In this document: piece after piece, positions 49,702-52,126 of the stretch
How positions within the stretch are numbered: the stretch's first letter is position 1
How the letters are laid out: every line of letters begins with the position of its first letter
Origin: Candidatus Zixiibacteriota bacterium
GTDB taxonomy: Bacteria; Zixibacteria; MSB-5A5; GN15; FEB-12
Direction: 5' to 3'
Length of the DNA: 64,000 nucleotides
NCBI GenBank assembly: GCA_022571985.1
Contig: JACZWU010000001.1
Coordinates: 1-64,000, forward strand
Notes under the pieces: model-generated
Told to the model about the DNA's origin: nothing
The model's input: the letters and a program-made list of their open reading frames with translations, nothing else
Database searches by the model: none
Translations under genes and position numbers: made by a program

Positions 49702-49717
49702 AACGCTTTTAATAATA

Positions 49718-49804
49718 TGCCGGAGGCCGGACTTGAACCGGCACGCCCCTTTCGGAAGCAAGGGATTTTAAGTCCCTGGTGTCTACCAATTCCACCACTC
49801 CGGC
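49718..49804 (-). tRNA. tRNA-Leu (anticodon TAA)
   Basis: Complete class II tRNA on the minus strand: acceptor GCCGGAG/CTCCGGC, D arm with AATTGGTAGACACC, anticodon stem AGGGA/TCCCT with loop CTTAAAA (anticodon TAA), a long variable arm, T arm GCCGG-TTCAAGT-CCGGC. No encoded CCA. Its 5' half and upstream region recur in decayed form at 50755, 52168 and 55929. Confidence 0.95.
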
Positions 49805-49949
49805 AAACGATGCAGGATAAAGAGTTACAACGTTTTGCGCAAGAGCCAAAACAGATATTGTAAATCTTGCCAAGTTTAACCCTCCAACTATTTTACTAGT
49901 GCTAACGTATAAGATTAGAAACGAAACTAGCAGATGGAGAATTTGACGT

Positions 49950-50615
49950 ATGAATCACAAAATTGCCCTGCTTGCTATCCTTTTGGCATTGGCGACAGTA
50001 TTCGTGACTGATACTGAAGCTCAGCGACGGCGTGGACGTGGAGACAGCCTGATGAAACAACGAAAGGACAACGCCCCCAAAGTTGGCGACACTGCCCCAA
50101 CATTCACTTTGAAATCTCACGACGGCAAGTCCGAAACATCTCTGGCCTCCTTCAAAGGAGAGAAACCGGTAGTTCTCTTTTTTGGAAGCTACACCTGACC
50201 TCCCTTTCTTCGCCAGGTTGGCGAAATGGAACAGCTGCACAAGGATTTTGGCGACATCGCCGAGTTCCGACTGGTGTATATTCGTGAAGCGCACCCGATT
50301 GACAGCCGTCGCCCGGCGCCCTACGCCGAGGAAAAAGGTATAAGCGAGGCCACCACCTTTGGAGAACGCTGCGCCATAGCCTTAGAGTTGCTTGATGATA
50401 AGAACCTGTCTATTCCTACAATCGTCGATGACATGGATAACAGTGTTAACGAAGCCTATCGTGCCTTCCCGGATCGCATCTTTGTGGTCGATGTCGACGG
50501 GAAAATCGCTTTCGCTGCCGACCGTGGACCGTGGGGATACGCACCGGCCATTAAAGATGTCAGAAAGTGGCTCGATGAAAGAAAAGCTACCGCGACCGAT
50601 TCAATTACCGACTAA
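49950..50615 (+). CDS. Exported deiodinase-like selenoprotein (thioredoxin fold, Sec at TGA)
   Basis: A 221-residue protein read through an in-frame TGA at 50196-50198 (residue 83). Signal peptide about 1-24, a basic linker, then a redoxin / iodothyronine-deiodinase-like domain: APTFTLKSHDGK, VVLFFGSYT-Sec-PPF, and FRLVYIREAHPID, a hallmark of the deiodinase family. In animal deiodinases the same place reads GSCT-Sec-PSF. The frame after TGA is continuous and conserved-looking for 139 codons, and a SECIS-like hairpin follows 10 nt after the TGA. If Sec is not inserted only an 82-residue stub is made. Likely a periplasmic thiol/selenol redox enzyme; no substrate can be named. Confidence 0.85.
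50209..50225 (+). promoter_or_regulatory. Bacterial SECIS-like hairpin
   Basis: A 6-bp stem TTCGCC/GGCGAA closes a 5-nt loop AGGTT. The loop starts 17 nt after the TGA, within the window where bacterial SECIS elements must lie to recruit SelB, and the loop carries the GG(T/U) expected of many bSECIS loops. It is inside the coding region. Confidence 0.7.
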
Positions 50616-50995
50616 CGTCCAGCCGATTTTTGAACATTGTCTGTCCAATTCGATACGAGACCATCCAAAGTGATACTTGTACTATTACGTCCTATCTATT
50701 TGTAGAGTCAAAGAATGCATTAAGCTCAAGCAGATGTTTTTTCATTTGAATCGCTTTTTAAGCCTTTGGCGTCTACTAATTCCACAACTGAGGCAAACAA
50801 CTAAGCGGCCTCAAATTGGCGATTTTGTAAAATTCGCGCAATGAGGGATTATCTAACATAATAGCCAATCAAAAGCAAATTACTAAATATTTATTATTTC
50901 TAGATAACGATTCTACAACACGTTTAGCGTCGCTAAAAAGTCTTTTGAATAGATTTTATTTACTGACACTTCCTGTCATGATTAGAAATTAGTTT
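50616..50995. other. Gene-free spacer holding a tRNA-Leu remnant
   Basis: A 380-nt AT-rich spacer between the selenoprotein gene and the small-peptide gene. Apart from the tRNA-Leu 5'-half remnant at 50755-50794 and its flank, nothing gene-like is seen. Short frames lack ribosome sites. Confidence 0.6.
50755..50832 (-). pseudogene. tRNA-Leu 5'-half remnant 2
   Basis: On the minus strand this reads as the acceptor strand (GCCTCAG), the D arm (TGTGGAATTAGTAGACGCC) and the start of an anticodon loop (TTAAAA) of a Leu tRNA, then breaks off. About 80 percent identical over 43 nt to the intact gene at 49718-49804. The 5' flank to about 50832 resembles that of remnant 4 at 55971-56010 more than that of the intact gene. 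Confidence 0.75.
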
Positions 50996-51343: not shown

Positions 51344-52126
51344 ATGAATTCTAACAAACTCGAACTAACGCTAGAACTAGTGAGAGATTACGCAAACAAT
51401 GATCTGAAGCACTTTACAGATATTGTTAGAACGGCCTTTACTGATGTGGACCCGGTATTCTTGCGGCCAAGATATGACAAGTTTTTTTGGCACTGTGCCG
51501 GAAGCGTTCCGGGATGGATGGCTCAGGTAGTACTTGCCAACGCCGATGCAGAAAGTGATGGTTCGAATAAACTCTTAAAGCTTTGGCAAAGTGTGAATTA
51601 CAATGAGTTTATTGAAGAAAAAGTCTTATTTCATGCCAAAGACGAAGCCAGGCATTCTCGTCTGTTTGTTAAACTGACCAGAATGGCTTTTCCCTCGCTG
51701 ATTGGAAAAAAAGAAGAAAATGCTAAGAAAGATTCACTTGTTCGAATTACGAAGGATATGCTTATCAAATCTGAATTTATCGTAAACGAGTTAACTCTTA
51801 TAGATAACTTAGTCCAAATGAATATGGGTGAAATTCGGACTCGGCTTCATATGGAATTACTCGGGCCGGCAATTCACGCATTCAGTCCCGAGAATTCTAA
51901 GTCTAAAGTTAAAGCTATATTGAACGGACTCTCGCACGACGAAGTTGTTCATATAAGCTATATTGCTTCGTTGATAGAATCGTGGTGTGAGACTGGTGAT
52001 AAGAAACAATTACTGATTTTGTATAGGAATCGTCTTCAAGATTTTCACGAATTCACTATTAGGCAAACGGAAAGCGCAGTGAATAGCTATGGAGCGGGTC
52101 GATTTCCTGATTTGTTAGAAATATGA
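51344..52126 (+). CDS. Ferritin-like diiron oxidase/oxygenase family protein
   Basis: A 260-residue all-helical protein. Two ExxH motifs are evident: E101-ARH104 in HAKDEARHSRLF, and E200-VVH203 in LSHDEVVHISYI. Glutamates in intervening helices (such as E149 or E171) could complete a carboxylate-bridged diiron site as in ferritin-like oxygenases. No signal peptide; cytoplasmic. It lies 105 nt downstream of the small Cys-repeat peptide, same strand, both between tRNA-Leu remnants. A role in oxidising that peptide is attractive but unproven; other diiron oxygenase roles are possible. Confidence 0.6.
   Translation: MNSNKLELTLELVRDYANNDLKHFTDIVRTAFTDVDPVFLRPRYDKFFWHCAGSVPGWMAQVVLANADAESDGSNKLLKLWQSVNYNEFIEEKVLFHAKDEARHSRLFVKLTRMAFPSLIGKKEENAKKDSLVRITKDMLIKSEFIVNELTLIDNLVQMNMGEIRTRLHMELLGPAIHAFSPENSKSKVKAILNGLSHDEVVHISYIASLIESWCETGDKKQLLILYRNRLQDFHEFTIRQTESAVNSYGAGRFPDLLEI

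Follow-up and report, generated by a model that had tools for sequence, protein, structure and literature searches.

A predicted exported selenoprotein of the deiodinase family in Zixibacteria with a variant active site

In animals, deiodinases are the enzymes that turn thyroid hormone on and off. A gene resembling them, interrupted by a single in-frame TGA, lies in the 64-kb window (the whole stretch of Zixibacteria DNA that was analysed), and the question it raises is whether this codon ends a short reading frame or is read as selenocysteine (Sec) in a longer protein and, if so, what such a protein would do in a bacterium. The features of the locus are as follows:

49950 to 50615, plus strand: gene for a predicted Sec-containing deiodinase-like protein of 221 amino acids with Sec at residue 83 (U83) and TAA as stop codon (Pfam and open frame)
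49950 to 50024, plus strand: predicted N-terminal signal peptide, MNHKIALLAILLALATVFVTDTEA followed by Q, with cleavage near residues 24-25 (by inspection)
50079 to 50579, plus strand: thioredoxin-fold/deiodinase domain, approximately residues 44-210 (Pfam, phmmer, AlphaFold model and fold search)
50196 to 50198, plus strand: in-frame TGA, putative selenocysteine residue 83, motif SYT-U-PPF (aligned with TGA or Cys in homologues)
50209 to 50225, plus strand: predicted upper stem-loop of a bacterial SECIS, with a stem of 7 bp (TTCGCCA/TGGCGAA) and a GGT loop at 50216-50218 (folding and covariation)

The frame opens with ATG at 49950, closes with TAA at 50613-50615 and has the TGA at codon 83 as its sole internal stop. 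The original prediction had read one frame through FFGSYT-TGA-PPF and into a downstream half containing VYIREAHP, and both the coordinates and the motifs are as it described them. It had also expected automatic annotation to cut the gene short; standard ORF calling indeed splits it into pieces of 82 and 129 residues, making this a gene of the sort that standard annotation would break into two. A single in-frame stop at which gene callers split the gene is also what would be seen if a Cys codon (TGC or TGT) had been mutated to, or misread as, TGA, leaving an 82-residue fragment only. The homologues argue strongly against such a pseudogene or sequencing error. Across two phyla, TGA stands at the aligned codon in seven other homologues, three from Zixibacteria (L031, L024, L025) and four from Verrucomicrobiota, while four homologues read through with Cys at the residue-83 position and none has Trp there; Cys forms aligning at this residue had been among the expectations of the original prediction. 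Within the phylum Zixibacteria (132 genomes) the TGA form is present in four, the source genome included, and a Cys homologue (L026) in another; in the phylum to which a Verrucomicrobiales MAG belongs (388 genomes), four again have the TGA form (L032/L036, L037, L038, L039), with Cys forms in L034, L035 and L040. The codon is retained in the nearest named relative, Candidatus Zixiibacteriota bacterium B22T1B11, whose overall identity is 87%. In a comparison with the sister species, which retains the TGA, dN/dS comes to 0.09 for the 138 codons that follow it and to 0.15 for residues 26-82 that precede it. These low values on both sides of the codon indicate that purifying selection acts on the two halves as a single protein.

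Several of the relatives have unusual architectures. In the Verrucomicrobiales locus L032 (5983-7311), a deiodinase-like domain with Sec (GCLTUPPF), apparently exported and with Leu in place of the relay Glu discussed below, is fused to a longer C-terminal part with an EF-hand end. The Cys-form domain (SLTCPVS) of L040 (61-2019, minus strand) is followed by ankyrin-like repeats in a single protein of about 650 residues. The Verrucomicrobiota Sec homologue L039/L042 is apparently split by a frameshift soon past the deiodinase insertion, by assembly error or decay.

Reading through the TGA as Sec requires the corresponding machinery, and the original prediction had named selA, selB, selC and selD as the genes to look for. 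All four are found in the genome, an assembly of 2.93 Mb in 17 contigs with a completeness of 97.6%: selA and selB adjoin each other, the tRNA-Sec has a UCA anticodon and scores 71 bits, and the catalytic position of selD is itself encoded by an in-frame TGA (CAGUASKLPP; L018:1471-2526, contig C10, approximately 144,487-145,542). With selD and the deiodinase-like gene both carrying such a codon, the Sec machinery is apparently used at least twice. Among the AhpC-TSA-like genes found in the genome, only the deiodinase-like gene has an in-frame TGA, and formate dehydrogenase gave no match above cut-off in the genome. Every genome with the TGA form has selA above cut-off, and in the two Verrucomicrobiota genomes tested that have matches without the TGA form (G156 and G333) selA falls below it; in Zixibacteria this co-occurrence is little informative because selA is near-universal there (above cut-off in 116 of 132 genomes).

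The same observations bear on a variant code, under which TGA would be read as Trp or another amino acid and the frame would likewise be open. TGA terminates 17 of the 45 long ORFs in the window and so acts as an ordinary stop elsewhere, the tRNA with the UCA anticodon scores as tRNA-Sec, the aligned position in the homologues is TGA or Cys but never Trp, and neither a tRNA-Trp with UCA nor frequent in-frame TGA at Trp positions was seen. With the conservation of the TGA, the dN/dS values, the presence of the Sec machinery and the use of TGA as a stop taken together, a pseudogene or sequencing error is effectively excluded, and a reading of TGA as Trp or another residue has a similarly negligible probability.

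Incorporation of Sec in bacteria depends on a hairpin downstream of the UGA, and a hairpin is indeed present at the spacing suited to SelB, as had been predicted, although in place of the proposed 6-bp stem with an AGGTT loop it folds as 7 bp with a GGT loop. The bacterial SECIS model of PMC13188914 asks for an upper stem of 4-16 bp, a loop of 3-9 nt with G in one of the first two positions, a distance of 16-37 nt from the UGA and a minimum free energy of -7.5 kcal/mol or lower; here the stem has 7 bp, the 3-nt loop is GGU and begins 17 nt past the UGA, and the energy is -10.1 kcal/mol. The folding energy is unexceptional against shuffled sequences (z = -0.27), and a comparable stem-loop is present at about 3.7% of the TGAs in the window. 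Covariation is more telling: in five sequences, a small sample whose stem arms overlap conserved codons (R-Q-V-G-E), 35 of 35 pair cells are standard, both sides are altered in three of the seven stem pairs (3 of 500 shuffles scored as high), and slid versions of the stem pair far more poorly. In L024, where GGC has become GAC (Gly to Asp), the opposite arm shows a matching change from CGC to CGT that leaves Arg unaltered, and in L037 the two outer U-A pairs have both become G-C. Because of the overlap with those conserved codons, the conservation of the stem is partly protein-driven. The loop of the sister species is UGU rather than GGU, which the model still permits, and no counterpart of this stem-loop came up in a simple stem search of L038, L039 and L032. 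The hairpin alone is insufficient; the signal above chance lies in the combination of a protein profile running through the TGA, conservation of the TGA, compensatory changes, purifying selection and the Sec machinery. Decoding of residue 83 as Sec is very probable from several independent lines of sequence evidence, and all the checks named in the original prediction favoured it.

The profile in question is Pfam T4_deiodinase (PF00837), which matches residues 37-210 unbroken across U83 (1.6e-31, 109.9 bits, against a curated cut-off of 27 bits); the AhpC-TSA and Redoxin profiles match more weakly, yet also over cut-off. The closest solved proteins by phmmer are mouse DIO2 (1e-23) and DIO3 (3e-18), aligned over residues 46-210. 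An AlphaFold model built from ten homologues (mean pLDDT 86.8) again returned mouse DIO3 (4tr3, 5e-15) and DIO2 (9h48, 3e-14) at the top of a PDB search, followed by exported thioredoxin-like, ResA and peroxiredoxin structures at 6e-10 and weaker. The deiodinase insertion, or D-loop, is kept as Y110-x-x-E113-A-H115-P. Identity across the domain is approximately 38% with vertebrate DIO2 and 31% with DIO3, and the protein shares with both the TUPPF motif, the EAHP of the insertion and an N-terminal hydrophobic segment. It differs from them in having a likely cleavable signal where they have a membrane anchor, a bacterial SECIS within the coding region and no thyroid-hormone context. The NCBIfam model NF038285 (deiodinase_rel) matches all ten aligned homologues; the gene product, at 156.8 bits, scores below its cut-off of 250 and covers only model positions 174-333 of 347. 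A tree of 14 sequences places L039 together with the Sec forms from Zixibacteria (support 99) and leaves the deep order and the place of the animal deiodinases unsettled. No relative was found among the viral contigs searched, and a plasmid search gave one distant match, from Mycolicibacterium, annotated as 'deiodinase-like protein' (27% identity).

The active site retains much, but not all, of what is known of the animal enzymes. The proton relay of Dio2 consists of Ser127, Thr129, Tyr157, Glu160, His162 and His182 (PMC11592359), and five of the six have equivalents here: S80, T82, Y110, E113 and H115. The His182 equivalent, variable among relatives, is Ala134, and the loop-D Trp167 equivalent is Arg120; measured as an iodothyronine deiodinase, the protein thus lacks both the complete six-residue relay and the loop-D Trp. 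Trp is present in L037 and L038, and L037 has the His182 equivalent as well. At R192, which resembles Arg275, the sister species has Gln. The proximal Cys of DIO1, which serves regeneration with glutathione (PMC9141512), and that of DIO3 correspond to Tyr81; none of the aligned bacterial homologues has Cys there, and mouse DIO2 likewise lacks it, having Ala. The sole Cys of the protein, Cys141, is present in all four Sec forms from Zixibacteria and in mouse DIO2 as well. All eight Sec forms have the active-site motif U[PG]PF, which lacks a Cys at +3, unlike the UxxC that reviews give for the bacterial deiodinase-like family.

Where the protein would act is suggested by its N-terminus, which by eye shows a basic start, a hydrophobic core and T-E-A before Q, features resembling a type I signal peptide; the AlphaFold model has an N-terminal helix here at low confidence. 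Export of the selenoprotein is therefore a prediction from sequence. The original prediction had regarded an exported Sec protein as uncommon, and here it needs correcting: the other Sec homologues also have signal-peptide-like N-termini, mostly ending Ala-Gln (judged by eye, with L024 lacking an obvious ATG), so that export looks to be the rule among these relatives and not an oddity of one gene. In L035, a Cys homologue, there is a lipobox-like LVSC.

The genomic context is less informative. Two tRNAs lie upstream along with a dockerin-like protein, and downstream come two genes without a Pfam match and an MscS-type channel; in the sister species MscS directly follows the selenoprotein gene, and more distant relatives have different neighbours. 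A function based on an operon was rejected, as this context points to none. At 50764-50802 in the window, about 1 kb from a tRNA-Leu gene (49717-49805, minus strand), a short run of sequence, ggcgtctactaattccacaactgaggcaaac, is similar to the 5' portion of that gene, as a partial duplication would be. Two small genes follow it, and both are missing at the corresponding position in the sister species. A 260-residue protein without a Pfam match, encoded at 51344-52126 between the selenoprotein and the MscS-type channel, has no counterpart at the equivalent position in the sister species.

Taken as a whole, the locus is very probably explained by a genuine selenoprotein of the T4_deiodinase family, decoded through SelB and the hairpin, predicted to be exported and putatively using selenolate chemistry. 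SelB bound to the hairpin would deliver Sec-tRNA to the UGA, and the N-terminal signal would direct the product outside the cytoplasm. There, judging from the fold and the relay residues, the selenolate may attack an electrophilic group such as a halogen, a peroxide or a disulfide bond, with protons passed along the five conserved relay positions. Since Tyr takes the place of the proximal Cys found in DIO1 and DIO3, the oxidised Sec would probably be re-reduced by an external thiol or by Cys141.

From this we infer an extracytoplasmic role that is either redox or reductively dehalogenating. In the first case the Sec would reduce periplasmic peroxides or protein disulfides, much like a 1-Cys peroxiredoxin or a ResA-type thioredoxin, and would dehalogenate nothing. 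The protein shares with such exported proteins the thioredoxin fold, its predicted export and the AhpC-TSA profile; the Redoxin match and the rank of thioredoxin-like and peroxiredoxin structures next after the deiodinases in the fold search agree with this, as do the redox role suggested in 2005 (PMC1088965) and the fact that thyroid hormones are unexpected in bacteria. It differs from them in its weaker fold match, the deiodinases being clearly the nearest fold, in keeping the deiodinase-specific insertion and in having neither CxxC nor a UxxC resolving residue. In the second case it would act on small halogenated aromatics, such as iodophenols, bromophenols or halotyrosines, by a mechanism like that of the animal deiodinases, in favour of which are the five relay residues, the PPF after Sec and the absence of the proximal Cys from mouse DIO2 too. 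Against it stand Ala134 and Arg120 in place of residues that L037 retains, the Gln of the sister species at R192 and the fact that no halogen-related genes were seen among the neighbours. A general redox role is judged likelier and is, in our view, reasonably probable; dehalogenation is possible but doubtful.

Bacterial deiodinase-like selenoproteins were first reported in 2005 from the Sargasso Sea (PMC1088965), and the family is listed in PMC9312934 and PMC13188914. The 2005 report describes Sec and Cys forms and suggests a redox function; the gene described here shares with that family the Pfam T4_deiodinase domain, a bacterial SECIS and the coexistence of Sec and Cys forms. Our literature search found no paper connecting Zixibacteria to these selenoproteins. 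The Zixibacteria gene is therefore a convincing, well-supported added member of a family known since 2005, with a variant active site.

As a short, apparently exported Sec protein, it is a clean test object for the function of bacterial deiodinase-like selenoproteins: the genome is well assembled and has all the Sec genes, the SECIS is well supported, and most of the deiodinase proton relay is present. The activity of the protein would bear on deiodination chemistry in bacteria, which lack thyroid hormone. It is unlikely, though conceivable, that this is an exported single-Sec reductive dehalogenase applying deiodinase chemistry to small halogenated aromatics and regenerated without a proximal resolving thiol; if true, it would be a bacterial counterpart revealing a role of the deiodinase fold without thyroid hormones.
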